Source: a virus
Length of the DNA stretch: 23,061 nucleotides
Direction: 5' to 3' (one strand)
IMG/VR virus record: IMGVR_UViG_3300036770_001875
Span: 1-23,061 of that record
Position numbers and translations under genes: made by a program. Below are positions 4,016 through 15,449 of this stretch, piece by piece; the first letter of the stretch is position 1; every line of letters begins with the position of its first letter. The notes under the pieces were generated by a model. The model saw nothing but the letters and a program-made list of their open reading frames with translations, was not told the origin of the DNA and made no database searches.

Positions 4016-5855
4016 ATGACTTTCCATATTTGACTTCACAGTTCAAGGGAAGTGTTGAGGCCCACGATGGTCTCCAACGCATGGACTCTTGCACGTACGC
4101 GCATGCTTCTTCCCACTCGGCTTCGGGTGCTATACAAGCTACAGCGTCATGCACCGTCAGTACTACTTCGTATCGCTCTGAAATCTTTAGCATCTGCTCA
4201 GCGATAACACATCGTGCCAGTGCTTGGCATATGTTCTCCACCACCTTACCACCATAGATCTTGACGTAGCCCCGCTTGGTCTTATAGTGGTACTGCGTAG
4301 TTTGATGTATGGACTTTCTTGTTTTAACAGACCTATCAAGTGTCCCAACAGTATCTACTTCAATCTTAGGATATTTCAGTGGCAACTTGCTCGGTAGATC
4401 AAACCCTATCCCAGGCATCAGCTTGACTGCCTGTTCTTGCGTACCAAACTCAGTAGTTTTTAACTCTTCGCTTGCAAGAGCTTCTAAGCACTTTTGCCCT
4501 TGCTCCCACAAATAAGGTATGAGTCGGTTCGCGTTTCGATATGATTGGATGATGTAGTGAGCCATATCTAGCGTCATATCAACGCCGACCGACTTCATAT
4601 GCTTACAAAACTTTTCAGCACCAAGGCCATAACCGCAACCGAGTACAACAGTCTTGCCGATGAAACGTTGGGCATCTGTAACTCTTGACTCTTTAGTATT
4701 AAAAATTATCGACGCCATAATCTTGTATACGTCTTGACCTAATGCAAACGCTCTAACAAGTAGTTCTTCTCCGGCTAACCATGCAAGTATCCGAGCTTCG
4801 ATCTGGGACGAGTCCGAATCGATAAGCACATACCCGTCAGGAGCACAGATAGCTTCCTTGATCTTTGATTTGCGTGGTAGGTTCTGAAGGTTTACTTTGT
4901 CGTCACCGCCCCATCTTCCTGTATGCGCGGCGTAGTACCGGAGTGGGACGGGGAGGCTACCCCGAAACGATATGTCAAGTAGCCTCTGGGTCCGTGTCTC
5001 TTCAAGCGTGGATTTTGTCCCTAGACGAGCAGCAACAGCGCACTGCACACGAGGATCATCATGCTCAGCTAACGCTTTGAGACCGTCATCATTCTTTGCT
5101 AGAGCGTACGTCACCTTCTTGGTTGTCGGGCTTAGCTTCATGGGCACGTCCACGCCCCACGACTCAAGCAGCGCGGCAAACTTTTGGTTGGACATCAACA
5201 CTTCTTTCGTTACGCCAGCTTCTTCAAGAAGCGTTTCCTTCTTCGCTATCACGTCATCAAGATGCTTCTGCAATAACTCTGAGTCAAGTCTCAATAACGG
5301 CTTAGCAAACATACGTAACGTGAGGTCGATGAGGTTCAACTCACGCCGTTTGAAATTAGCTTTGAGCACATCGAATAACTTGTACGTGATCTCTACGTCG
5401 TTGGCGCAGTACCCTGCGTAGTTACGTAGTTCGTAGTCGGTGAAGTCTCTGCGGTGCTTGCCAAGGGCTAAGACTACCTCAGTGCCTTTTTGACCAAGGT
5501 TATAACGTTCTGCTAATTTAGCCAGACTGTTACCTGCCTCCGTACCATCAACAGCTCTCGCCATACACAGCGTGTCAAGATACGCAGGGGGGCAAATGTT
5601 ATAACGCCAATTAAGTATAGCACCGTCAAACATCATGTTGTGGGCTAAGACCGCAGCTTTATCCCACTGGAACTGTGACAGCCACTTAGCTGTCTGCTCG
5701 TGCGTACCGCTAAACCATTCAGTAGGCCCATCGTCTACCTTCACGCATACGCCGATAGTCTCGAAACGTGAATCACGAACGTACTCTTCTGTCGTCATCT
5801 TCGTCAAAGAATATTCTTTGTCGTAGTACGTTTCGAAATCAATCGTTATAATCAT
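3987..5855 (-). CDS. Family A DNA polymerase with 3'-5' exonuclease, 622 aa
   Basis: This is the replicative polymerase. The N-terminal DEDDy exonuclease shows Asp6 and Glu8 (TIDFETYYD), AHNMMFDGA (Asp77) and Y149-x3-D153. The palm has motif A DSSQIEAR (Asp348), motif B Arg397-x3-Lys401-x7-Tyr409-Gly, and motif C TVHDAVA (His569, Asp570). Motif C carries Ala571 where Pol I has Glu883. The residue matching Pol I Phe762 is Leu405. There is no 5'-3' exonuclease domain; 622 residues is usual for phage exo-pol enzymes. It overlaps the VRR-NUC gene upstream by 17 bp and the Cas4-like gene downstream, forming a compact replication cluster. Confidence 0.96.
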   Translation of the reverse strand: MIITIDFETYYDKEYSLTKMTTEEYVRDSRFETIGVCVKVDDGPTEWFSGTHEQTAKWLSQFQWDKAAVLAHNMMFDGAILNWRYNICPPAYLDTLCMARAVDGTEAGNSLAKLAERYNLGQKGTEVVLALGKHRRDFTDYELRNYAGYCANDVEITYKLFDVLKANFKRRELNLIDLTLRMFAKPLLRLDSELLQKHLDDVIAKKETLLEEAGVTKEVLMSNQKFAALLESWGVDVPMKLSPTTKKVTYALAKNDDGLKALAEHDDPRVQCAVAARLGTKSTLEETRTQRLLDISFRGSLPVPLRYYAAHTGRWGGDDKVNLQNLPRKSKIKEAICAPDGYVLIDSDSSQIEARILAWLAGEELLVRAFALGQDVYKIMASIIFNTKESRVTDAQRFIGKTVVLGCGYGLGAEKFCKHMKSVGVDMTLDMAHYIIQSYRNANRLIPYLWEQGQKCLEALASEELKTTEFGTQEQAVKLMPGIGFDLPSKLPLKYPKIEVDTVGTLDRSVKTRKSIHQTTQYHYKTKRGYVKIYGGKVVENICQALARCVIAEQMLKISERYEVVLTVHDAVACIAPEAEWEEACAYVQESMRWRPSWASTLPLNCEVKYGKSYGTTTKYVG

Positions 5856-6237
5856 CGCTAATCCTAATCTTGATGCGTTTCTGTGCGAACCTAGCCGTGG
5901 GAACGGTCATAATTTTTTCGCCGCGCATTCGCTTGTAGTCAGGGTTTATCTTGGATTGTTCCTCAAGCCACTGCTCAAGCAGGTTGATGTTCTGCTCGTT
6001 AATGGTGAAGGCTACCCCTTTGTGGGCACGTATGGTACGCATCTCTTCCATCTGCAATGGAGTCGGCACGTTGTCCCCCGCTTTACATTCTATAGCAAAG
6101 AACTTTCCGTTCACACAACCAACGATGTCGGGGATGCCACTCCTACCGTAGCCTCCGGTAGTGGGCTTAAAGAAATACGTACCGTACTCTATGAGTAGCT
6201 CGGTTACTTTATGTTTTACCTTGCCTTCGGGTGTCAT
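5839..6237 (-). CDS. VRR-NUC domain nuclease, 132 aa
   Basis: The sequence GRSGIPDIVGCVNGKFFAIECKAG holds the PD-(D/E)XK core of the VRR-NUC family: the Asp of IPDI and the Glu-x-Lys of ECK. The following TPLQMEEM supplies the usual Gln. Members are stand-alone phage endonucleases thought to cut branched DNA such as Holliday junctions. The frame extends to a TTG at 6249, but the ATG at 6237 has GGAG with 6 nt spacing and is the better start. The C-terminal 45 residues are basic (KRMRGEKIM, AQKRIKIRI). It is the first gene of the replication operon, directly after the promoter at 6260-6288. Confidence 0.9.
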   Translation of the reverse strand: MTPEGKVKHKVTELLIEYGTYFFKPTTGGYGRSGIPDIVGCVNGKFFAIECKAGDNVPTPLQMEEMRTIRAHKGVAFTINEQNINLLEQWLEEQSKINPDYKRMRGEKIMTVPTARFAQKRIKIRISDDYND

Positions 6238-6259
6238 CTCTTTCTCCAAAAGTTGACTT

Positions 6260-6288: not shown

Positions 6289-6304
6289 GACGGTAAAGCA
6301 ATAA

Positions 6305-6338
6305 AAAAGGGACAAACTGATGATTAGTCAGAATGTCC
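6305..6338 (-). terminator. Intrinsic terminator of the middle operon, built on a 27-bp dyad (site A)
   Basis: On the minus strand GGGGACA, an internal 2-nt mismatch, CTGA, a 7-nt loop, TCAG, a mismatch and TGTCCC form a stem followed at once by TTTTTT. This is a Rho-independent terminator 54 nt downstream of the stop codon at 6392. Positions 6311-6337 are also a member of the recurring 27-bp dyad family (arms GACAAACTGAT and GTCAGAATGTC on the plus strand), so the site may have two jobs. Confidence 0.75.
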
Positions 6339-6391
6339 CCAAAAGATAACGTCATGAACGCAGAGTTTAGGTGATCTGCACACCCAACCAA

Positions 6392-7291
6392 CTAGGAGTC
6401 TGTGATTATATCACCATCTAGGACTGCGTAAAGAGCTTCCTCGTGAGAATTCTCCATCCGAACACCGACATTCCGAATGGGTTGATTTAGCTCGACAAAC
6501 TGAAGCATGTTTATCTTATCCAAGTATGGCTGTGGTATCTCTTCCCTACTGCGATATACCGTTGCCACAAAAGATTCAGACTTGCCCTGCAAATACTTAT
6601 CGACCATGACATACGAACCATCACGCATGCGTTTAACAGCCACAGCCGATGTATCAGCTATCGCGCTATGCACATCACTGATGATCTCGTAGGTGTGCCA
6701 ATTATCACGCAGCTTGTCGTTCACGATAGCTTTGATTATGGCGGGCATTGCAACATCCGCAGCGTTATTACTATTTGCCACATCAACGGCAAAGCCTATC
6801 AACCGGATGTTTATGTCATCGGTTTTGTTGTATGAATTAAAGACCTCGCGCCTAGACATCCACAGCAAGTCGTAACACTTACTTGAAACCTCGTTGTGTA
6901 CTACCGTACCTACAAAGTCTAGGCTTTTAGGCTTGAAGAACTCAATGATCTTCTTCACCGCAACACGGGGATTCTCTGTCACTGCTTCGTCCCTACTGCC
7001 ACGCTTTTTCTTGATGTTGTCGTTACAGATTGCGAACACATGCTTTTTCTCCCCACGGTGCTCGCGTTTGATATAAGTAACTGTGCCGAGCTTTTGGAAC
7101 CCGTGGAAGATCGTGACGAACCGTAGATACCTTGTATCTTCGATGTCGGTGGACCGCTCGATGTCATCACGCAGGATTTCGAACTGCAACGATGGCACTG
7201 CGTTGTACGCACTTAGCAAAACATTCACAAGCGGAGGTGCTACCTCCGGTGTTGTTTGCCCTGGCTTTGCATCAATCTTGATCTTAAACAT
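6392..7291 (-). CDS. Hypothetical phage protein, 299 aa
   Basis: The frame extends to 7366, but the ATG at 7291 (MFKIKIDAKPGQTTPEV) has a TAAGGAG site about 9 nt upstream and lies 13 nt after the upstream stop, so I start there. The protein is a mixed alpha/beta soluble chain with a basic stretch near residues 90 to 100 (NIKKKRGSRDE) and no catalytic motif, cysteine cluster or membrane segment that I can name. It is the last gene of the middle operon, downstream of the AAA and VWA genes, and may serve that system. Its function is unknown. Confidence 0.75.
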   Translation of the reverse strand: MFKIKIDAKPGQTTPEVAPPLVNVLLSAYNAVPSLQFEILRDDIERSTDIEDTRYLRFVTIFHGFQKLGTVTYIKREHRGEKKHVFAICNDNIKKKRGSRDEAVTENPRVAVKKIIEFFKPKSLDFVGTVVHNEVSSKCYDLLWMSRREVFNSYNKTDDINIRLIGFAVDVANSNNAADVAMPAIIKAIVNDKLRDNWHTYEIISDVHSAIADTSAVAVKRMRDGSYVMVDKYLQGKSESFVATVYRSREEIPQPYLDKINMLQFVELNQPIRNVGVRMENSHEEALYAVLDGDIITDS

Positions 7292-7304
7292 GATGTTGTT
7301 CTCC

Positions 7305-8168
7305 TTACCATTCGAAGCGTGAGAGGATTTCGTCAACCTTGCCCTTGAGATCTTCACGTACCACATCGCTCTCTTTAACCGAGTCGGCGTCGATGTTGTA
7401 GATGGATCTCTCCAGATCCTTGCGAGCCCTCTCTAGCTTCGGATCTCGTGTGACGTTAAGTTTGTCGAGCATATCGACTAGCTCTACTGCGTTTGTTATT
7501 AGCGTAGAGTGGAAGCCTTTACGATTGCCGTCCTCATCGTTCGCAAGCCGCTCGGACATGTGAGACAAGCACTCGTGTAGCCGATCCCACACTTCACGCA
7601 TCGCACCGTTGATACGTTCCTCTGTGGTACGTGCGTACATATCTTCCAATTCCTTTCGGGCTTGGTGGCCTATGTCAATGCGAAAGTCACCCGATGTCGG
7701 CACAGGCGAGAACGTGTAGCGGAACGAAAACTTCCTCATCACTTCCTCAAGCGGTGGGTAGTCACCACGGTTGAACAGCTTGCCAAGCGAGAACGCAGCG
7801 GCTGACACCATATCTTCGTAGTTAGCTTCGAAGTTGCTTCGCAGGCTGAGCCAGTTCTGCTCATGCTCATCAAGCCTAGCCTTGAAGCCAGACATGAACA
7901 CCTCACCCGTGAGCAAGCGTGGGCCTTTGTCTGCCCAAGGCAAGGTCTGCTGGTTGTACCAAAGCCGAATGCGAGCCGAGTACTTGTTCCAAGCATCGAG
8001 TGCATTCTGTCCTGCGAGCAGGTTCTTGTGGTAGTTACCTGCGTTGATCTTTGTATCGTTCTGTTGATCAACTTCTTGTGATACTTTCTTATCCAACTTG
8101 CGAGCGGTCCACGTTGAAATGTTCAACTCGACAAGCATTGCACTGGTTTCAATACCGATATGTTCCAT
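7305..8168 (-). CDS. DUF3150-like protein next to AAA/VWA genes, 287 aa
   Basis: Numbered from the ATG at 8168, which has an AGGAGAG site, the N-terminus LVELNISTWTARKLDKKV and the later LPWADKGPRLLTGEVF resemble the opening of DUF3150-type proteins that often accompany MoxR ATPase and VWA genes. This match is from memory of the pattern and is tentative. The body is largely helical with an acidic C-terminus. The frame continues upstream to 8192, but that ATG lies inside the 27-bp dyad (site B), and the downstream ATG has the ribosome site. A role as a partner or substrate of the AAA/VWA pair is inferred from position only. Confidence 0.7.
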   Translation of the reverse strand: MEHIGIETSAMLVELNISTWTARKLDKKVSQEVDQQNDTKINAGNYHKNLLAGQNALDAWNKYSARIRLWYNQQTLPWADKGPRLLTGEVFMSGFKARLDEHEQNWLSLRSNFEANYEDMVSAAAFSLGKLFNRGDYPPLEEVMRKFSFRYTFSPVPTSGDFRIDIGHQARKELEDMYARTTEERINGAMREVWDRLHECLSHMSERLANDEDGNRKGFHSTLITNAVELVDMLDKLNVTRDPKLERARKDLERSIYNIDADSVKESDVVREDLKGKVDEILSRFEW

Positions 8169-8187
8169 TTTGTTCTCTCCTAGTTGG

Positions 8188-8214
8188 GACATGCTGACGA
8201 TTAGTCAGTTTGTC
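8188..8214. promoter_or_regulatory. 27-bp dyad, site B
   Basis: The arms are GACATGCTGAC and GTCAGTTTGTC around GATTA. The nine conserved positions of each arm are fully symmetric; only the 2-nt gap is not. It covers the stop codon (8201-8203) of the ribbon-helix-helix-like gene and ends 19 nt before the next start codon. I see no convincing -10 box beside it on the minus strand, so it acts within a transcript or as a protein-binding site inside the operon. Confidence 0.75.
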
Positions 8215-8392
8215 CGGTTGATGGTTCTGCAACTTCCGTTTTGTTATAAGTGTCGAACAGATGCTCGACGACTTGCGACATCGAAGGCTCAAAGCCAAGC
8301 CGGTCGGCCAACTTCTTTTGCAGGACGACAAGCTGCTCGCCTACCCCTTTGGATAGGCTCACGTTCAATCTGGTTTGCACATACTTAGTCAT
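8201..8392 (-). CDS. Ribbon-helix-helix-like small protein, 63 aa
   Basis: The ATG at 8392 has GAGG at 5 nt and lies 7 nt after the upstream stop. The longer frame to 8452 overlaps the VWA gene and lacks a site. The sequence TRLNVSLSKGV fits a beta strand, followed by helix A (EQLVVLQKKLADRLG) and helix B (SMSQVVEHLFDTY), which is the Arc/MetJ/CopG ribbon-helix-helix layout. Such proteins bind DNA as dimers on palindromic operators. The 27-bp dyad site B lies across its own stop codon, so it is a candidate autoregulator. The fold is inferred from pattern alone. Confidence 0.6.
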   Translation of the reverse strand: MTKYVQTRLNVSLSKGVGEQLVVLQKKLADRLGFEPSMSQVVEHLFDTYNKTEVAEPSTGQTD

Positions 8393-8399
8393 AACTTCC

Positions 8400-9668
8400 T
8401 CACTCGATGTAGACGGCTGCGCCGACTTTGGGTTGAAAACGCTTGTTACCAATCACGCACCACAGCACAGGTGCTGACTCTGCCCATGCTTGTGCGTCGT
8501 GCCCGAAAAACACACCGTCAGTTAAGACGATGACCGCCTGGGGCTTTAGGTTCTTCTCACGTACATACTGAGGTATGCAGTCAGGCGTAGTCCCGCCACC
8601 ACCGACAGGCTTGGTCAATTCAGCGAACGAACCAACCTCTGCACCTCTGTACGTCTCGTGCTTTGCGATGTGGGTATCCCAGTACAGAACCTCCATCACT
8701 TCAGGCATCAGCTCATCGCAGATCGACTTAACCTCGGACACGAACTGACTCAGTGGCTCGCCACTGATCGAGCCCGATGTGTCGATAGCATTGACGAAGC
8801 AGTGTGCCTTCTCACTGATGAGCATGGGCATCACGATGTCCATACCGATGAACCGACGGTTAGGTCTGCGCCATGAGGTTTGATCTCGACCGAGCATTGC
8901 AGACTTGAGGAAGTCACGCAGTGCTGCACGCCAGTCAACCTTGGGATGCAGTAACTCGTCGATGCCACGCGGCACGTTACCTTTCATCTTCCCTGCCAAG
9001 ATAGCACCTTCACGTAACGCATGGTCGATGTCACGCTGTAATTCCTCTTTCTCTTTAGCGTCCATCGATTGTGCGTCGTCCCAGTCATGCACGTCGTGTT
9101 GCTGCTGCTCCATCTGGGACATGCCCTGCCCACCTCGTGAGGGACGGCGACGTTCTGACTTCTCGTCAGGTTGTCCTCGCCCTGGCCCATTACCGTCGAT
9201 CTCTTTCATCTCTTTCTTGAGCAGCTCGTAGACTTGCTTGGTGTCCATACCACGATACTTCTCGTCGTACAGACCGATGCGATTACCGTCCTCGTCGGTC
9301 GGGAACGCTACCAAGTCACTCGCAGTGTCGCTATCCAAGATCTGTAGATTGATCACGAAGTCCATCGCACAGTTAGCGAGCAGGTGGTTCTCATCCGATA
9401 ACGCTTTCCACGTAGTCAGATGGCGATAGGCTTTGTGCATCGCCTCGTGCACCACCACGAAGTTGATCTGCTTGTCGGTAAGCCGCTCGATGAACTGCCG
9501 ACCGTACGTCACATCGCGTCCGTTGGTAGCTGCCGTGAGATGCGGGTCATCGACGACCTGCACCTTGCCGACCATGAAGATGCCTGAGAACAGGCAATAG
9601 TTCTTGTCCTTCATCAACTGGACATGGCAACGCTCGATTCGTTGCTCAACGGTTAGTTTATTTTGCAT
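8400..9668 (-). CDS. HExxH metallopeptidase-like plus VWA domain protein, 422 aa
   Basis: The N-terminal domain carries VVHEAMHKAYRH (His74-Glu75-x2-His78), a zinc metallopeptidase signature, followed by NCAMDFVINLQI (Asp103), as in the DUF2201 N-terminal family. A charged low-complexity linker spans about 155 to 215. The C-terminal VWA domain has an intact MIDAS: DTSGS (Asp296, Ser298, Ser300), GGGGTTPD (Thr360-361) and LTDG (Asp384). It forms a pair with the MoxR-type ATPase 10 nt upstream. Such pairs act as chaperones that remodel or insert metal into protein targets. The start at 9668 has AGGAG; the longer frame to 9725 overlaps the ATPase. Confidence 0.92.
   Translation of the reverse strand: MQNKLTVEQRIERCHVQLMKDKNYCLFSGIFMVGKVQVVDDPHLTAATNGRDVTYGRQFIERLTDKQINFVVVHEAMHKAYRHLTTWKALSDENHLLANCAMDFVINLQILDSDTASDLVAFPTDEDGNRIGLYDEKYRGMDTKQVYELLKKEMKEIDGNGPGRGQPDEKSERRRPSRGGQGMSQMEQQQHDVHDWDDAQSMDAKEKEELQRDIDHALREGAILAGKMKGNVPRGIDELLHPKVDWRAALRDFLKSAMLGRDQTSWRRPNRRFIGMDIVMPMLISEKAHCFVNAIDTSGSISGEPLSQFVSEVKSICDELMPEVMEVLYWDTHIAKHETYRGAEVGSFAELTKPVGGGGTTPDCIPQYVREKNLKPQAVIVLTDGVFFGHDAQAWAESAPVLWCVIGNKRFQPKVGAAVYIE
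9149..9175. promoter_or_regulatory. 27-bp dyad, site G, inside the VWA gene
   Basis: The arms are GACGTTCTGAC and GTCAGGTTGTC around TTCTC, one mismatch to the family consensus (GACG for GACA). It lies within the coding sequence, over the charged linker (about residues 165-173) between the metallopeptidase and VWA domains, where the protein tolerates variation. No promoter or start codon is evident beside it. Confidence 0.55.
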
Positions 9669-9678
9669 GTCTACTCTC

Positions 9679-10740
9679 CTAGAATAAGTACTGGTTCTCA
9701 CGCATCCACTGCACGAATACACCACTCGTGAATAAGATGTCGCGCTTCTCTTTGTTGCGTGCTGCCGTAACGCTGAACACCGACTGCAACTCTTTCGGTG
9801 TACGTTTCAAATAGGTAAACCACTTGTTGATGTTGCCCCTGTCGATCTTCTGCACAGCACCGTAGGCCATGATGCACAGAGCCGCAGGGGATGTGGGGAT
9901 CTTTGCTGTCGCAGGGTCGTGCATGATTGACTCCCAACTCGGTAGCGAGTCGGCCACCTCGACGTAGGCAACCAAGTCACGGCCAGCGTTCTCACCGATT
10001 GTGCCGCACAGCGCAGAGATCAGCGTGTCACGGCTGAACATGGCACGTTGCTTGATGATGTTGCTAGCCTTCTCACCGGACCGTGGCGAGAAGTATGACC
10101 GTTGCGGATACTTGGGGTTAAAGATCATGTGGTTCTCTGCTTGCGTAGCATCCTTGTATGAAGCCAAGCAGTGCGGGAACGCTTTGACCCACGCCAATAA
10201 CTCAGGTGCGAAGTTCTTCTCTGCACCGTACTCGATGTACGCTTCTGCCGTGGGGTTAGCGATGGGAACCACCGTCATGCGGTTGATGCTGTGGGATTTC
10301 ATCATGTCACCAACCCCATCGGTGCTGTTGTTACCCGCTGTCACTACGATAGTATCCTTGTGCTGTTTGAACCCAGCGATCCGCCGCTCATGTAGCAGGG
10401 GATGCAGCATGTTTTGCACAGCCTGTGACGATGGCTTGCTGAACTCGTCGATGAAGATGACAAGCGGCTCACCTGTGTGGAAGCCCCAGTGCTCGTTGGG
10501 ATAGAGCGATGTGGTCTGTGTCTCACGGTTGGGCATGGGCACACCGAGATCACCAAGGTCTGTTGTCGGCGTGTCGATGTACACAAGCCGGAAGCCTGTG
10601 CGGTTTGCTAGGCGTGTAGCCATAGCAGTCTTACCAATCCCAGGCTGGCCCACTAGATGCACAGCGTTGGTGTTGCCGATGGCGAGGATGAGTTCTTCTG
10701 CTTCGGCCAGTGATACTTCAGTGTTAAGTCTAAGTTCCAT
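9679..10740 (-). CDS. MoxR-type AAA+ ATPase, 353 aa
   Basis: Walker A is GQPGIGKT (31-38), Walker B is VIFIDEF (Asp98-Glu99) and sensor 1 is in VVTAGNNSTD (Asn137-138). The PHLL-type segment MLHPLLHERRIAG after Walker B and the lack of extra domains fit the MoxR/CbbQ branch of AAA+ proteins. These ATPases form hexamers that pair with VWA proteins to remodel targets; the VWA partner is the next gene, 10 nt away. The ATG has TAGGAAA 7 nt upstream. The dyad site C lies 32 nt before the start codon. What the phage ATPase acts on is not known. Confidence 0.93.
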   Translation of the reverse strand: MELRLNTEVSLAEAEELILAIGNTNAVHLVGQPGIGKTAMATRLANRTGFRLVYIDTPTTDLGDLGVPMPNRETQTTSLYPNEHWGFHTGEPLVIFIDEFSKPSSQAVQNMLHPLLHERRIAGFKQHKDTIVVTAGNNSTDGVGDMMKSHSINRMTVVPIANPTAEAYIEYGAEKNFAPELLAWVKAFPHCLASYKDATQAENHMIFNPKYPQRSYFSPRSGEKASNIIKQRAMFSRDTLISALCGTIGENAGRDLVAYVEVADSLPSWESIMHDPATAKIPTSPAALCIMAYGAVQKIDRGNINKWFTYLKRTPKELQSVFSVTAARNKEKRDILFTSGVFVQWMRENQYLF

Positions 10741-10772
10741 TTTGATTTCCTAGTTGATATGTAATGTTGTGC

Positions 10773-10799
10773 GACACCCTGACGATCAGTCAGTTTGTC
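10773..10799. promoter_or_regulatory. 27-bp dyad, site C
   Basis: The arms are GACACCCTGAC and GTCAGTTTGTC around GATCA. The conserved nine positions in each arm are symmetric and the 2-nt gap (CC against TT) is not. The stop codon of the upstream gene (10790-10792) lies in one arm. The ATPase start codon follows 32 nt after the dyad on the minus strand. No good -10 box precedes it. Confidence 0.75.
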
Positions 10800-11788
10800 C
10801 CGTTTATTTGGTCGATCAATGACGGGTCACCGCAGCGATTTATGAACAAAGCGTTGACATCGCGGGCGATGTATTTCGATGGTTGCACCTCCTCTCGTTT
10901 AAACAGTATGTGTGGGTATTGAAGTTTTAACAGGCTAATGAACAGTTGCTTGATACTTACATAGGTAACGTGGTTCACACCTTCGAGCGACGCACACAGC
11001 CGTACGAACAGCAGGTATGTCGTCTCGTGGTCGTCGTCCTGCATCGCTAGGTCAAGCCTGTCGAGGAAACAACCACGATACTTCCTAGCGTTCACTGGGT
11101 CACGCAACACGTCGAACATGTAGAACCGTGGGTAGAGCAGCTCGTTGTCCCGCACGATCATGGGTGCGCCTCTGGGTGTAACGCCCGTACTCGTACCATT
11201 CTCACGTAGCTCCATCAGTTTTGCATGCGCCTCGCTCAAAGGCCACCGACCCTGCGAGTCACCGAGCAATGACAAGCTAGTCTTGCAGTACTGCAAGAAC
11301 GGCTCGTACATGTTGAGTAGCCTTTTAGTCTCTGACACTTGGGCTACATACTTGTGTACCGTAGGAAGATTAGTGAATTTGTCCGTTGGTGCATGAAATA
11401 TCAACGGCGTGTCGTAGGGCAGCTTGTGCCAGAACCCCTCCCTCGTCGAGACGTGGATACTGCGTTGGCTCGTGGCGAACCCACCAAGCAGCGGTACAAG
11501 CACCCCCCACATAAAACCCAACGTAGTCGGCGTGTGATACCCGCATGCGTTGATGTGGATGTTCCCATCAGGCTTGAAGATGATGACTTTGTGCCCGTAC
11601 AGGAGGAGCTCGATGTCGCAGGGTGTGTCGGGGCTTTTGCGGATCAGGCACTGGCTGTACCGACGTGAACCAAGCGGACGCAGCCCTGACTGGTGGCTGT
11701 TCTTGTTGTAGGGCTTGATCTTCTCGTAGTGCGCCACAGCCTCTTCGTAGGTACGTAGCGACGGAAGTTTTGCATTGTGTAGAGACAT
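10790..11788 (-). CDS. Hypothetical phage protein, 332 aa
   Basis: Start at the ATG at 11788, which has AGGAG at 7 nt. A longer frame to 11902 overlaps the upstream gene and has a low-complexity Ser/Thr/Arg N-terminus. The protein opens with MSLHNAKLPSLRTYEEAVAHYEKI and has a beta-rich first half (YGHKVIIFKPDGNIHINACGYHT) followed by a helical half with several Cys and His. I recall similar proteins in uncharacterised phages but no function. It sits just before the MoxR ATPase and could provide the target or adaptor. The stop codon lies within dyad site C. Confidence 0.75.
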   Translation of the reverse strand: MSLHNAKLPSLRTYEEAVAHYEKIKPYNKNSHQSGLRPLGSRRYSQCLIRKSPDTPCDIELLLYGHKVIIFKPDGNIHINACGYHTPTTLGFMWGVLVPLLGGFATSQRSIHVSTREGFWHKLPYDTPLIFHAPTDKFTNLPTVHKYVAQVSETKRLLNMYEPFLQYCKTSLSLLGDSQGRWPLSEAHAKLMELRENGTSTGVTPRGAPMIVRDNELLYPRFYMFDVLRDPVNARKYRGCFLDRLDLAMQDDDHETTYLLFVRLCASLEGVNHVTYVSIKQLFISLLKLQYPHILFKREEVQPSKYIARDVNALFINRCGDPSLIDQINGTN

Positions 11789-11798
11789 CAAATCACTC

Positions 11799-12062
11799 CT
11801 AGTTGAGGGGCAATAAGTATGATGCGTACGATGAGTGGGCACAGACGATCTTTCCGTCTTTGACGATGTTGCCCCACTTCGTATTGATCTGGTTCTCGAC
11901 AATCTGACGCTTTGTCAGGATGTCGCGCCACTGGTAAACGACTTGCATGATCTGCTGCTCAGTAGCATTGTGGTTACCGAGCACAGCTTTCATGCCTTCT
12001 TCGAACTCGATCATCTGCTTGATGAGTTCTCGGTACTTGCGTAATGCGTCAATCTTGTTCAT
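11799..12062 (-). CDS. Hypothetical helical protein, 87 aa
   Basis: The ATG at 12062 (MNKIDALRKYRELIKQM) overlaps the stop of the 26-residue microprotein by one base (TGATG) and has TAGGAG 7 nt upstream. Residues 1 to 60 are helical and charged (EFEEGMKAVLGNHNATEQQIMQVV); the rest is short beta. No family is recognised. Its leader, TAGGAGTGATTTGATG, is identical to that of the next gene. Confidence 0.7.
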   Translation of the reverse strand: MNKIDALRKYRELIKQMIEFEEGMKAVLGNHNATEQQIMQVVYQWRDILTKRQIVENQINTKWGNIVKDGKIVCAHSSYASYLLPLN

Positions 12063-12142
12063 CAAATCACTCCTAATCCGATTAGAACTGCCAGTGCACA
12101 GGCACAGAAAATGATGCCTACAAATACGTGTTCGTCGTTCAT
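12062..12142 (-). CDS. Single-pass membrane microprotein, 26 aa
   Basis: A 26-codon frame starts at an ATG at 12142, with AGGAG 6 nt upstream inside the end of the previous gene, and stops at TGA overlapping the next ATG. The product begins MNDEH and the rest (VFVGIIFCACALAVLIGLGVI) is one continuous hydrophobic segment, so it should span the inner membrane with the acidic end in the cytoplasm or periplasm. The ribosome site and the exact fit between two genes argue that it is translated. It could be a small membrane regulator or lysis-related peptide; function is unknown. Confidence 0.65.
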   Translation of the reverse strand: MNDEHVFVGIIFCACALAVLIGLGVI

Positions 12143-12143
12143 T

Positions 12144-12416
12144 TCAATCTCCTAGTACGCACACCCAACGTGTGGCGGTTATCCGCTTGGTCAAAAGCTT
12201 TTGGCGTGCTGTGATACGCACGTAGTTATTGAAGTTCTTGACGTTGACCGCCTCCTGCGAACCACTCTTTGCGATTCTTAGTCCGTCAGCTTCAAGAACT
12301 ACGAAGCCTTTAGTCGTCAGTACTGACAGCAGTGCGTCCCAATCAGGCACCACCTTAGTCGGTATTGGCGTAGGCTCAGCAGTGAACGCTTGCTTCGGTA
12401 CGTCTTGTATCCTCAT
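12144..12416 (-). CDS. Hypothetical protein, 90 aa
   Basis: This 90-residue protein has a GAGGGGGAAG site next to the ATG, which overlaps the upstream stop as ATGA. The N-terminal 25 residues are Pro-rich (EPTPIPTKVVPDW), followed by an alpha/beta region (ALLSVLTTKGFVVLEADGLRI) and a basic C-terminus (ITARQKLLTKRITATRW). It may bind nucleic acid but shows no diagnostic motif. The family is not recognised. The ribosome site of the downstream microprotein lies in its last codons. Confidence 0.65.
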   Translation of the reverse strand: MRIQDVPKQAFTAEPTPIPTKVVPDWDALLSVLTTKGFVVLEADGLRIAKSGSQEAVNVKNFNNYVRITARQKLLTKRITATRWVCVLGD

Positions 12417-12643
12417 TCTTCCCCCTCACCAAAAATAAGCCTCTCACCATGCTTACTTGCATAGGTATTTGTGTTCTTTCGAGCGATCATCATGTAGTCA
12501 GCCATCTCGTAGGCTTCCTTAGCGAGGTACGGCATAGCTTCTTCTACCCAATGTTCAAATAAGTTGTCCTCTAAGAACATCTCCCTGTGCATGTCCATCA
12601 TGGCTTGCATAGCAAGTCCTGCGAAGTGATCTCGTAAATCCAT
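12413..12643 (-). CDS. LRDHFAGLAMQAM-type small phage protein, 76 aa
   Basis: The start MDLRDHFAGLAMQAM and the later AYEMADYMMIARK match the common phage family also found here at 1974-2207, where the motif reads LRDYFAGQ and IADAMLKRR. No function is known for the family. An AACTAGGAG leader lies 8 nt before the ATG. The C-terminal 20 residues (SKHGERLIFGEGEE) are charged and probably disordered. Having two diverged members in separate operons suggests an old duplication. Confidence 0.8.
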   Translation of the reverse strand: MDLRDHFAGLAMQAMMDMHREMFLEDNLFEHWVEEAMPYLAKEAYEMADYMMIARKNTNTYASKHGERLIFGEGEE

Positions 12644-12658
12644 TTCATATGCTCCTAG

Positions 12659-12697
12659 TTAAACAACATTAAAAAAGACAAAAACTCCAGTAATCAT
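12659..12697 (-). CDS. Possible 12-residue peptide in a gene gap
   Basis: A 12-codon frame (MITGVFVFFNVV) starts by overlapping the upstream stop as ATGA and ends just before the AACTAGGAG leader of the next gene. It could keep ribosomes moving across the gap, or it could be chance. There is only a weak G-rich sequence upstream. I list it so the gap is accounted for. Confidence 0.2.
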   Translation of the reverse strand: MITGVFVFFNVV

Positions 12698-12867
12698 TCC
12701 AACCCCTTCTTCACTACTAGTTCAAATTCTGTACCCCAGTCGAGCACCTGCAACTCGACTATGCGGTAATAACTTTTCACACATCTTTCGCTGTCATATA
12801 TAACGACGCATACATCTGCGTCGTCGCTGTAGCCCTCGATCATTTCCCTCAGCTCTTTCATCTTCAT
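12694..12867 (-). CDS. Small acidic protein, 57 aa
   Basis: A 57-codon frame begins at an ATG at 12867 that overlaps the upstream stop as ATGA; GTGGGA lies just before it. The product opens with MKMKELREMIEGYSDDADV and continues as beta strands (CVVIYDSERC, YYRIVELQVL). The opening helix followed by SDDADV and a beta strand is a layout common in short phage proteins of unknown function. The coupling and coding-like composition support it. Confidence 0.7.
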   Translation of the reverse strand: MKMKELREMIEGYSDDADVCVVIYDSERCVKSYYRIVELQVLDWGTEFELVVKKGLE

Positions 12868-13073
12868 TCCCACGGCTCTCTCCTTCCATGTTCGTAGTGC
12901 GCGTTCAGCACCATCTGTACGTCGAATGCGTTGCCGTACATGTCCATCTTGTGTTTCACTGCGTAGTCCAACGCTTCCTTCTCGGTATCAAAGAAGCCAT
13001 ACACATGTGCGGGTTCATGTGGGAAGAAGTTGAGGATCACCCACTTCCCTGTTTCTTCGCTGTTCTCGTTCAT
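12864..13073 (-). CDS. Hypothetical protein, 69 aa
   Basis: The ATG at 13073 overlaps the upstream stop as ATGA and has a GGAGGG site about 10 nt upstream, so I use it and not the longer frame to 13202, whose extra residues are Arg/Gln-rich shadow sequence. The protein has WVILNFFPHEPAHVYGFFDTEKEALDYAVKHKM, a beta strand, loop and helix typical of a small alpha/beta fold, then a second strand (AFDVQMVLNAH). No family is recognised. Confidence 0.7.
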   Translation of the reverse strand: MNENSEETGKWVILNFFPHEPAHVYGFFDTEKEALDYAVKHKMDMYGNAFDVQMVLNAHYEHGRREPWE

Positions 13074-13330
13074 TTCACCAACCCTCCTTTGTTGTTGAGA
13101 CCTGCGAGCAGGTCGATGCTTGTGATAAGCATGTAGTTGGACTTGTGCATGGGGGCGATGCACCACTGTTTGCGTTCGGCTTGGGCTTGCGCTTCGCCGC
13201 ATGGCTTGCAGATGAGGTGGCCGTACTTGGCACGCTTTTTACCGACGCCGTTGACCTTGCAGCGGAGGCAGTAACCGTTCTTGGGGACATTCTGACGGGT
13301 AGTCAGAATGTCGTTACTTGTTGCTTGCAT
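13070..13330 (-). CDS. Zinc-ribbon protein, first gene of the middle operon, 86 aa
   Basis: Residues YCLRCKVNG and ICKPCGEAQ give two CxxC pairs about 18 residues apart, a zinc ribbon. Basic residues lie between them (GVGKKRAKYGH). The ATG at 13330 has AGGAG at 5 nt. The frame also extends to an ATG at 13420, only about 9 nt after the predicted transcription start and without a ribosome site; that form would be 116 residues. The 27-bp dyad site D covers roughly codons 7 to 15, so any factor bound there could block this operon at its first gene. It may bind nucleic acid; function is not known. Confidence 0.75.
   Translation of the reverse strand: MQATSNDILTTRQNVPKNGYCLRCKVNGVGKKRAKYGHLICKPCGEAQAQAERKQWCIAPMHKSNYMLITSIDLLAGLNNKGGLVK
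13286..13312. promoter_or_regulatory. 27-bp dyad, site D (perfect 11-bp arms)
   Basis: The arms GACATTCTGAC and GTCAGAATGTC are perfectly complementary around GGGTA, making this the only fully symmetric member of the family. It lies 15 nt inside the first gene of the middle operon, about 120 nt downstream of the predicted transcription start. In mRNA it would form an 11-bp hairpin close behind the start codon. Confidence 0.8.
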
Positions 13331-13435
13331 ATCGACTCCTGTGGTTGATGACGTATGGACGAGCACCGACTCACTCCCTTGCGGGGGTGTTGCTACTTGG
13401 GGTTGTTGTGTTCTGTTCATCGATGCTACGCATCA

Positions 13436-13464
13436 ATGATACCATACTTTCTTAACAAAGTCAA
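13436..13464 (-). promoter_or_regulatory. Sigma70 promoter with extended -10 for the middle operon
   Basis: On the minus strand TTGACT (13464-13459) and TATCAT (13441-13436) are separated by 17 bp, with TG one base before the -10 box (TGGTATCAT). Both boxes match 5 of 6. Transcription would start near 13429 and run through the zinc-ribbon gene towards the terminator at 6305. A short palindrome (GATGC-GTA-GCATC) lies at the predicted start. Confidence 0.75.
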
Positions 13465-13465
13465 G

Positions 13466-13828
13466 TTAGTGTCCAGAGCTCTACAATGTGATGTAGGCAT
13501 CGAAAGGGGAGGGGGGTTTGTATGATTGTATGAAAATGAAAAAATAAAAAAATACAAAAGAACCCTTGATTTACGGGCTTTGTAGCAATGTATGATTTGT
13601 ATTGTTAGAAAGAGGCTACGGGGGAAAAATGGGTACAACGGGGGATGCACTGGCTGCGTTTCTGCAAAGCTGCGAAAAAAATTTCCGGAAGGCGTTTTTT
13701 GCCAAAATCGACAATACAAATACTACATTCTTTGTTTTCAATGACTTAGGTTCAATACATTAATCCAATACATTATGTTTTTTTTTCATACATTCATACA
13801 AATGGTGCTTGACAAGGTTGCGAAAAAC
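13466..13828. other. AT-rich divergent control region with TGTAT repeats (possible origin)
   Basis: No gene with a ribosome site is visible here. The octamer TTGTATGA occurs twice in tandem at 13518-13533. Its inverse (TCATACAT then TCATACAA) occurs in tandem at 13786-13801, and ATGTATGA lies at 13588. TGTATTG or its inverse CAATACA occurs at about 13598, 13712, 13753 and 13766. A-tracts and a run of nine T's lie between. Clustered short repeats in an AT-rich divergent region are typical of phage origins or repressor arrays. A possible plus-strand -35 box (TTGACA, 13809-13814) has only a weak -10 partner at 13832-13837. Confidence 0.5.
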
Positions 13829-13852
13829 CGTTAAGCTGCTCGCAGCTTAACG
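13829..13852. repeat. Perfect 11-bp inverted repeat
   Basis: CGTTAAGCTGC, two bases, then GCAGCTTAACG form a perfect hairpin. On the minus strand it is followed by GGTTTTT, so it could stop antisense transcripts arriving from the right. No plus-strand T-run follows it. It lies at the right end of the repeat-rich control region and 16 bp before the first 33-bp box. Confidence 0.6.
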
Positions 13853-13868
13853 AAACGGGGTGGCGAGA

Positions 13869-13901
13869 TTAGGCTACCACGTTGACATGACCGTTCCCTG
13901 G
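13869..13901 (+). repeat. 33-bp direct repeat, copy 1
   Basis: This box begins TTAGGCTACCACGTTGACAT and ends GACCGTTCCCTGG. It is identical at all 33 positions to the copy at 14628-14660. It ends 64 bp before the -10 box of the first duplicated gene, where an activator site would be expected. It contains TTGACA, but no -10 box follows at a suitable distance. Confidence 0.9.
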
Positions 13902-13942
13902 CTCCCTTCGTCTTTGCCAAGCTGGTTGCATCATGGCAAGCC

Positions 13943-13971
13943 GTGGCAAAATATTGTTGATTTGGTACAAT
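13943..13971 (+). promoter_or_regulatory. Promoter of first duplicated gene
   Basis: GTGGCA (13943-13948), a 17-bp spacer and TACAAT (13966-13971), with TG one base before the -10 box. The same GTGGCA and TGG-TAYAAT elements occur before the second copy. The predicted start falls at the first bases of dyad site F, so the transcript would begin with that dyad. Confidence 0.65.
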
Positions 13972-13976
13972 GGCGG

Positions 13977-14003
13977 GACATTATGACGTTTGGTCATAGT
14001 GTC
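13977..14003. promoter_or_regulatory. 27-bp dyad, site F, at a transcription start
   Basis: The arms are GACATTATGAC and GTCATAGTGTC around GTTTG. The consensus C-G pair at one position is replaced by A-T in both arms, so symmetry is kept. It begins 5 bp after the -10 box and ends exactly 21 nt before the start codon at 14025, as in the second copy of the module. Confidence 0.75.
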
Positions 14004-14024
14004 TTAACCAACCAAGGAAACGAT

Positions 14025-14591
14025 ATGAAAAACGAAGCGATGTATCAAGCAGGTTCTTTGTTCGCTGATAGCGAAACCAGTGCCGACGAAGCATTGGAAG
14101 TCGGCGCTCGTGCCATTGGCGACAAGCCGACCTTTGACCATTTCATGGCATGCCGAGCCGTGTTTGTTGATGCGTACGTGAGCCGCAAGCCGAACGCCAA
14201 AGGCGATGCGAGCGATCAAGCATGGAAGCGATTCAAGGATCGACTGGTTGCCAAGTTTGCTGTGACCATACCGCAAGCACCAAGCAAAGCCGCAACTAAA
14301 AAACGAGCCGAGCGCAGTGCAAAGCAGGAAGCACTGCTCAAGCAGTATGAGCACGCAACACCCGCCGAGCTCACGGACATGTTACGCAAGCAGTACGAGG
14401 CACAAGCAAAGAACCCGATGATTGACGACAAGAAAATCAACGAGCTCAAAGCAGTGCTCAAGGCAAGAACCAAAGGCGACCAAGCCGAGCAGGTCGCACT
14501 GCTCAAGTCGCTTCGTGCTGACGTATCGAAATTGGCCAAGGCATGCGGCGACCCAGCGAAACTTCGCAAGGTTATTGCACTGCTCAAGTAG
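14025..14591 (+). CDS. Duplicated-module protein, copy 1, 188 aa
   Basis: The start ATG at 14025 has AAGGAA at 5 nt and follows the dyad by 21 nt; upstream in-frame codons back to 13860 run through the promoter and are not coding. The protein is a paralogue of the next gene: both have YQAG or FSAG near the start, KPTF or NPTF, a YVSRKP or YHSVKP segment, a GDxA line, a Pro-Ser-Lys hinge, AxxKKAExR, and a Lys/Ala-rich coiled-coil half. The second half repeats ALLK several times, each encoded by nearly the same 12 bases. No known family is recognised. It ends at its own terminator. Confidence 0.75.
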   Translation: MKNEAMYQAGSLFADSETSADEALEVGARAIGDKPTFDHFMACRAVFVDAYVSRKPNAKGDASDQAWKRFKDRLVAKFAVTIPQAPSKAATKKRAERSAKQEALLKQYEHATPAELTDMLRKQYEAQAKNPMIDDKKINELKAVLKARTKGDQAEQVALLKSLRADVSKLAKACGDPAKLRKVIALLK

Positions 14592-14607
14592 CAAAGCAAA
14601 AGCAACG

Positions 14608-14629
14608 AACCCGCGCAAGCGGGTTTTTT
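14608..14629 (+). terminator. Intrinsic terminator after duplicated gene 1
   Basis: AACCCGC, a GCAA tetraloop (GNRA type) and GCGGGTT form a 7-bp stem followed by TTTT. It lies 17 nt after the stop codon. The second 33-bp box starts within its T-run. Confidence 0.9.
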
Positions 14630-14660
14630 AGGCTACCACGTTGACATGACCGTTCCCTGG
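14628..14660 (+). repeat. 33-bp direct repeat, copy 2
   Basis: Identical at all 33 positions to 13869-13901, and placed at nearly the same distance (62 bp) before the -10 box of the second module. The flanking bases on both sides have diverged. Confidence 0.9.
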
Positions 14661-14700
14661 TCGGTCTTGGCTGGACAATGACTGGGGAGCATGGGATAAC

Positions 14701-14728
14701 GTGGCAGAAAATGGCAATGTGGTATAAT
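14701..14728 (+). promoter_or_regulatory. Promoter of second duplicated gene
   Basis: GTGGCA (14701-14706), a 16-bp spacer and a perfect TATAAT (14723-14728) with TG one base upstream. The layout repeats that of the first module. The predicted start is at or next to the first base of dyad site E. Confidence 0.75.
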
Positions 14729-14735
14729 GTCATCT

Positions 14736-14762
14736 GACATTCTGAGATTGGCTCAGATTGTC
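14736..14762. promoter_or_regulatory. 27-bp dyad, site E, at a transcription start
   Basis: The arms are GACATTCTGAG and CTCAGATTGTC around ATTGG. The innermost consensus C-G pair is changed to G-C in both arms, keeping symmetry. It begins 7 bp after TATAAT and ends exactly 21 nt before the ATG at 14784. Confidence 0.75.
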
Positions 14763-14783: not shown

Positions 14784-15449
14784 ATGAGTAGCAAGAAGCC
14801 AGTAGTTGCAGCCCCCATTGCCCCAGTTGTGCCAGTTCAAATTTTGACTGGGGATCAGGAGAGCGCAGCCTTTTCAGCAGGTGCAGGAGAAGCTAGGACT
14901 AGCTTAGACCGTCTAGCCAGTGCAGAAGGTTATGCACGAGCTCTCGGATCCAATCCTACTTTCCTGCAATGGGAGAGCATGAGGGCTAAGTGGGTTGAAG
15001 GGTATCACTCAGTGAAGCCAGATACGACTAGCAATGCAGGAGATAAGGCCTTCAATGGCTTTGCCAAGTATCTTAGCGAGCTATATGGTATCGACAAACC
15101 CAAGTCCACTAGCGCAGCAGCAGTGAAAAAGGCTGAGGAGCGCAAAGCTGCTGTTGCTAAGCTAGAGGAGAAGTATCAGGATCAGGATCTGCCCCAGATT
15201 ATGCAACAGATCGAACGGCAATATGAGAAGCTAGCCAAAAGCCCCAGTGATACTCACGCAGAGAAGAAGATCAAGGAGCTAAAGAAAATTGCGAAGCTTA
15301 AAGCTAGCGATGAGAAGGCTGAGCTAGCTGAGGAGATCAAGCAATTGAAGGAGGAGATCAGGAGCATGCTATCAGCGCAGCGTAATGTTGACGTATTACG
15401 TGAGGTGCATGATTGCTTGAGCCAGTACGTTAGCAATGAGGAGGAGTAA
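14784..15449 (+). CDS. Duplicated-module protein, copy 2, 221 aa
   Basis: The ATG at 14784 has AAAGGAG about 8 nt upstream. The protein has a Pro/Val/Ala-rich start (about 1-20), then a domain paralogous to the previous gene (FSAGAGEARTSL, NPTFLQWESMRAKWVEGYHS, GDKAFNGFAKYL, then KPKSTSAAAVKKAEER), and a long Lys/Glu coiled coil from about 115 to 195. Its base composition differs from copy 1: CTAG occurs nine times here and never there. It forms an operon with the small gene one base downstream. The function is unknown; strong signals suggest high expression. Confidence 0.8.
   Translation: MSSKKPVVAAPIAPVVPVQILTGDQESAAFSAGAGEARTSLDRLASAEGYARALGSNPTFLQWESMRAKWVEGYHSVKPDTTSNAGDKAFNGFAKYLSELYGIDKPKSTSAAAVKKAEERKAAVAKLEEKYQDQDLPQIMQQIERQYEKLAKSPSDTHAEKKIKELKKIAKLKASDEKAELAEEIKQLKEEIRSMLSAQRNVDVLREVHDCLSQYVSNEEE

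Follow-up and report, generated by a model that had tools for sequence, protein, structure and literature searches.

The DNA analysed here (the window) is the entire IMG/VR record IMGVR_UViG_3300036770_001875, a linear viral fragment of 23,061 bases, in which eight 27-bp dyads of common design are spread over 8.5 kb of an early gene region. The dyads are most simply read as the operators of a phage regulon whose most likely regulator is cl13, an all-helical protein of a putative new family, presumed to bind DNA as a dimer, that is encoded at the edge of the array. This reading is drawn from comparison of sequences and is given a probability of roughly 0.68; a genetic switch and its key are thus probably both in hand.

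An array of dyads at fixed gene positions

The window was scored with the consensus GACA-N2-CTGAC-N5-GTCAG-N2-TGTC (18 specified bases). All seven 27-bp dyads reported in an initial annotation of the sequence were recovered with the geometry described there, together with an eighth, exact site at 11898-11924 that had been overlooked. Window sites differ from the consensus by 0-2 mismatches and lie about 0.7-1.9 kb apart. They are as follows (gene starts are estimates by the analysis):

6311-6337, unstranded: putative operator dyad in the slot that precedes the VRR-NUC gene (5839-6249); read on the minus strand, it is followed by CC and TTTTTT (6303-6308), forming an intrinsic-terminator hairpin too
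8188-8214, unstranded: putative operator dyad closely upstream of the DUF3150-like gene (true start ~8168); pattern match, slot in relatives
9149-9175, unstranded: putative operator dyad within the VWA/DUF2201 gene (8400-9725); pattern match, slot in relatives
10773-10799, unstranded: putative operator dyad upstream of the AAA ATPase gene; pattern match, slot in relatives
11898-11924, unstranded: eighth putative operator dyad, exact consensus GACAATCTGACGCTTTGTCAGGATGTC, within the open reading frame (ORF) 11799-12065 and ~110 nt ahead of where the 10790 gene likely begins
13286-13312, unstranded: putative operator dyad within the opening codons of the zinc-finger gene (estimated true start ~13327); pattern match
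13977-14003, unstranded: putative operator dyad spanning the point where transcription of the first cl13 gene is predicted to begin; hexamer TACAAT at 13966-13971
14736-14762, unstranded: putative operator dyad spanning the point where transcription of the second cl13 gene is predicted to begin; hexamer TATAAT at 14723-14728

An order-2 Markov model of the window yielded no site with ≤3 mismatches in 100 simulations, and the pattern read backwards matched neither in the window nor in any of 49 related records. The exact pattern occurs in 82 IMG/VR stretches, many with several copies, and the 49 records examined whole carry 1-11 sites each at ≤2 mismatches. A family set was assembled from uncultured phages with genes in common with the window; it comprises 43 contigs, some of them partial, and leaves out records L002, L013 and L057 (one site each; possible chance matches). 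Scanning this set with a symmetric profile at a cutoff of 10 bits yields 300 sites, and shuffled sequence yields none, a control that the initial annotation had named beforehand as a refuting test. A scan of 84,980 bacterial and archaeal genomes (GTDB) returned no array, just 11 stretches that each contain a single match, which identifies the array as a phage feature and indicates that the factor binding the dyads is probably viral; a host factor or a bacterial regulon was rejected on this ground.

The sites occupy constant positions in relatives, the other refuting test named in advance. Of 261 assignable sites, 260 lie between the VRR-NUC gene (5839) and the second cl13 gene, and this holds in the 50-70-kb contigs too. 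A site occupies the slot before the VRR-NUC gene (between 5839 and 6392) in 35/35 contigs and the slot before the AAA gene in 32/35 (19-43 nt ahead of the gene); a site is found upstream of the DUF3150-like gene in 17/36 contigs and inside the VWA gene, 498-555 nt from its start, in 28/37. Conversely, relatives carry no site within 150 nt upstream of the polymerase gene, the 3332 exonuclease gene or the terminase-side 15924 and 16498 genes, in agreement with the earlier observation that the late operon is devoid of them. TATAAT-like hexamers peak 5-8 nt upstream of rightward (plus-strand) sites, which places the start point of cl13 transcription within these sites; leftward (minus-strand) sites show no such peak. 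The proposed location of sites at transcription starts, gene junctions and an operon terminator was borne out for such sites, but not for 9149, 11898 and 13286, which fall within reading frames. The phage regulon suggested at the outset is supported, and so is the likeness to an L5-like stoperator array, with sites found at promoters and within the operon alike.

Operator types and cl13

Some more distant relatives keep the gene order but not the GACA-CTGAC pattern. Dyads are of the GACA-N2-CTTAC type in contig G050 and of CTT[AT]C types in G051 and G058, and a de novo search of G060 revealed seven dyads GAACA-N2-ACCG-N7-CGGT-N2-TGTTC in the same slots, in which the length from ACA to TGT stays 25 bp. 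Searching with the AAA protein identified 80 loci that span the array, of which 79 were analysed for dyads; a blind dyad finder detected families of 3-12 dyads in 70/79 of them and of ≤2 in shuffled loci (simple shuffles). Further half-site types at the same gene junctions include CCTAG, TCCG, GCGAC, AGTGTC, AGTTAC, CAAGA and others, and every operator type is a 27-29-bp dyad.

The proteins whose sequences follow these changes are the two copies of cl13 in the window:

14025-14591, plus strand: cl13 copy a, all-helical, 188 aa, proposed operator-binding regulator (operator covariation, natural swap pair)
14784-15449, plus strand: cl13 copy b, paralogue, 221 aa, 31% identical to copy a; covaries separately

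The gene is duplicated in many of these phages, with an operator at the promoter of each copy. An AlphaFold2 model of cl13 is confident and all-helical, with eight helices (for copy a, a predicted local distance difference test score of 91.9; predicted template modelling score 0.56). The ORF listed at 13860-14591 begins too early: its first 55 codons contain the promoter and the operator, and translation of the first cl13 gene likely starts at the ATG at 14025.

Natural operator exchanges are seen between closely related phages. L251 and L252 share 80-96% DNA identity where aligned, through the terminase, AAA, VWA and DUF3150 genes, yet all operators of L251 are GGACA-N2-CCTAG and all those of L252 are GGACA-N2-TCCG, including the site inside the VWA gene. 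The main unalignable gene between the two is cl13. The same pattern is obtained when L254 and L256 are compared with L258.

Covariation was quantified by comparing pairwise protein distance with operator distance after removal of core-genome distance (50 loci, 200 permutations), for cl41 and the genes up to ~10 kb from the AAA gene, many contigs being fragments. In this test, whose permuted partial correlation does not fully remove phylogenetic dependence and for which the other genes serve as control, cl13 gave a partial r of 0.60-0.63, a value reached in 0/200 permutations. The adjoining gene w15924 gave 0.41 and all remaining genes -0.13 to 0.27. The cl13 value was 0.63 with GC content also removed, cl13 was the top gene in 4/5 subsets, and copy b alone retained a partial r of 0.44 (23 loci). 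In both copies separately the signal peaks over the stretch from helix 3 (residues 37-54) through the loop behind it to helix 4, the strongest segments being helix 3 and the following loop in copy a and helices 3 and 4 in copy b. A coarse count of operator-class changes on gene trees leaves cl13, w10790 and w15924 tied for best.

Several observations weigh against cl13 as the regulator. The protein has no Pfam family and no helix-turn-helix (HTH) match even at E up to 1, and a fold search returned neither a PDB match (best E 1.5) nor a viral model match (best E 0.47). Within the subset of GACA-only loci w15924 outperforms it (0.46 versus 0.36), and in L324 (contig of G002) cl13 lies at a distance of 0.84-0.89 yet the operators are canonical. 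A short stretch near the zinc-finger gene is also unalignable between L251 and L252, and genes beyond the ~10-kb flanks of the AAA gene are covered by cl41 alone. Finally, L255 combines a CCTAG-type cl13 and cl13 operator with other operators of the TAACA-TCCG type, an arrangement that fits a recent recombinant or a chimeric assembly.

Alternative explanations and proposed mode of action

A different role for the dyads would be as RNA hairpins in early transcripts, acting in translational control or termination, and in some slots the site does lie 19-43 nt ahead of a start codon. Among 190 distinct sites, however, Watson-Crick pairs are rarer than expected from base frequencies at gap position 5 (52 versus 66.6) and gap position 6 (37 versus 54.8), whereas position 7 shows no such deficit (126 versus 124.3), the two arms varying independently without compensation. 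The unpaired gap and the uncoupled arms mark the dyads as DNA sites, in keeping with the earlier preference for a DNA site bound by a symmetric protein. In addition, two of the window sites lie at promoters on the opposite strand. The VRR-NUC slot is the exception: a T-run follows the site on the transcribed strand in 19/25 cases there versus 13/203 elsewhere, position 5 pairs in 60% of cases versus 28% in the other slots, and compensatory stem pairing together with a U-tract was found in this slot only, the site there being operator and intrinsic terminator together. Apart from this terminator, the pairing statistics lead to rejection of the hairpin reading, whose probability is close to nil. 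The same data revise the initial account of variation in the arms. Paired changes occur at 13977 (CTGAC to ATGAC) and 14736 (CTGAC to CTGAG) and changes in one arm only at 6311 and 9149, the initial assignment of site letters to these two classes being partly wrong; paired change had been taken as a sign of selected symmetry, but it is no general rule in the family. Nor is the gap devoid of conservation, as had been thought, position 5 being A or T in 88% of sites. A cluster of partition, packaging or recombination sites (parS-like) would account for many symmetric sites at such intervals over several kilobases, some of them intragenic. It is very unlikely, given the fixed slots at cl13 promoter starts and gene junctions and the fusion of one site to a terminator; moreover, a search of 22 contigs for integrase and resolvase families, though not for partition genes, found neither.

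With the dyads taken as DNA operators, the question becomes which protein binds them. Five candidate regulators had been put forward initially, among which the 14025 and 14784 products, that is, the two cl13 copies, coevolve with the operator and the 8201 and 2310 products do not qualify. The 2310 HTH protein was rejected because its homologues occur in very few contigs. The ribbon-helix-helix protein 8201 and the 80-aa HTH protein cl41, encoded outside the fragment, both resemble DNA-binding proteins; cl41 is present in 22/22 contigs covering its neighbourhood, and a widened ribbon-helix-helix profile has matches in 47/79 loci. Nonetheless a repressor of either kind is highly improbable. The regulator of a ribbon-helix-helix regulon did not accompany the operators here, the close family being found in 10/43 contigs and the gene missing from the other 33 canonical-array contigs, including the 70-kb G013; where operators switch, it sits unchanged in a near-identical block. 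For cl41, the recognition-helix segment VSRMTIYKWF is identical across GACA-CTGAC, CTTAC and ACCG phages while operators change, and the partial r is 0.02 versus 0.60 for cl13 on the same loci. Both proteins were rejected. It is more conceivable, though still unlikely, that some other phage or host protein binds the dyads and that cl13, being at the edge of the array and itself a target, travels along with them. The lack of a recognisable DNA-binding domain in cl13, the correlation of the neighbouring w15924 and a screen covering 10 kb around the AAA gene plus cl41 all speak for this view. Yet operators are also found in and between the AAA, VWA and DUF3150 genes, whose sequences do not track operator type, so that linkage alone does not explain the match, and w15924 drops to 0.29 once cl13 is controlled, whereas cl13 holds 0.60 with w15924 removed.

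Two side observations concern the rejected proteins. The ribbon-helix-helix-like protein is encoded at 8201-8396 (minus strand), between the VWA and DUF3150 genes, and occurs in some clades only. For cl41 (for example, G044:18300-18542), at least 578 relatives exist in IMG/VR, and VSRMTIYKWF is nearly invariant.

From the computed sites, slots, lack of RNA pairing, operator types and cl13 coevolution we infer binding, dimerisation, repression and their timing as follows. A cl13 dimer would sit on the dyad, with helix 3, the next loop and helix 4 of each protomer reading one 11-12-bp half-site. Since the operator covers the transcription start at both rightward cl13 promoters, binding should block initiation there, and cl13 would control its own level. 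The other six sites are distributed along the leftward early operon, at gene junctions, within the VWA reading frame and at the distal terminator, and would act on elongating polymerase; such a road-block, stoperator-like in its effect on elongation, might lower the expression of early and replication genes later in infection.

None of 22 contigs contained integrase family PF00589 or PF00239 (many of them fragments; parA was not searched), so that lysogenic immunity is not an obvious role for cl13; ordinary immunity of this kind is not indicated, plasmid-like persistence being possible. A broader proposal, which we advance tentatively and hold to be somewhat doubtful, is that cl13 founds a new family of regulators that bind DNA sequence-specifically, and that a large group of these apparently non-lysogenic phages swaps a cl13 allele together with six to ten matched operators dispersed over the early region, resembling immunity groups without lysogeny. 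If so, operator types would reflect the exclusion of co-infecting phages of the same type, for which lysogeny is not needed.

Known systems and neighbouring elements

The stoperators of L5 and other Cluster A phages are 13-bp asymmetric sites, oriented with transcription and bound by a monomer with an N-terminal HTH (PMC9283540, PMC6550527). Cluster A phages are temperate, their stoperators are spread over the genome, and the consensus of the site varies from phage to phage in step with the sequence of the regulator (PMC6550527, PMC9283540). The present array likewise comprises many copies of one site, located in promoters (two, with TATAAT) and in a transcribed region (six, in the leftward cluster), and its site and regulator sequences vary together. 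It differs in consisting of 27-29-bp dyads, in being confined to one early region, in a candidate regulator with no detectable HTH and in the integrase result given above. By this comparison the dyad array may work like L5 stoperators, without being a member of that system. The Streptomyces phage phiC31, which is temperate and has a serine integrase, combines a repressor with conserved inverted repeats, several palindromic operators being placed at several promoters; multiple palindromic operators are thus common to both, the absence of a detected integrase setting the present phages apart.

No cultured phage in the collection encodes cl13 (tblastn), the zinc-finger protein was not found in cultured relatives, and cultured relatives of the AAA and DUF3150 proteins are distant only. 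One of these phages, the cultured Planktothrix phage Pag-Yong1 (OL906435, L348), has about 20 dyads CCGGTTCAG-N-CTGAACCGG, mostly closely before start codons. The two systems share a dyad array around a distantly related ATPase/DUF3150/VWA gene cluster, but the Pag-Yong1 dyads are of other sequence and have a shorter core. They are not reported as regulatory in record OL906435. Pag-Yong1 has no cl13 homologue by profile; two helical, Lys-rich paralogues that it encodes were considered as relatives of cl13 and set aside, as they do not align with it. Its array could make a similar system testable in culture.

The array and cl13 would provide a defined gene-control system, with a candidate regulator, for a widespread and uncultured phage group, and a natural series of matched protein-operator alleles from which a recognition code might be read directly. 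They raise the question of why operator types, whose diversity is usually ascribed to superinfection immunity, diversify in phages that show no sign of lysogeny. Operator type could also mark phage-phage interaction in metagenomes.

The protein encoded at 13070-13327 (minus strand) is small, contains two CxxC pairs and is found in most relatives, sometimes twice; the spacing of its CxxC pairs resembles that of DksA/TraR zinc fingers (no Pfam match). A second conserved element precedes both cl13 genes:

13875-13899, plus strand: element TACCACGTTGACATGACCGTTCCCT, 102 bp upstream of site 13977
14634-14658, plus strand: identical copy of the element, 102 bp upstream of site 14736

In relatives its counterpart is TACCRCGTTGRNATGACCGTTCCCT, located 31-149 bp upstream of the operator. 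The element could be a promoter or an activator site of another kind.

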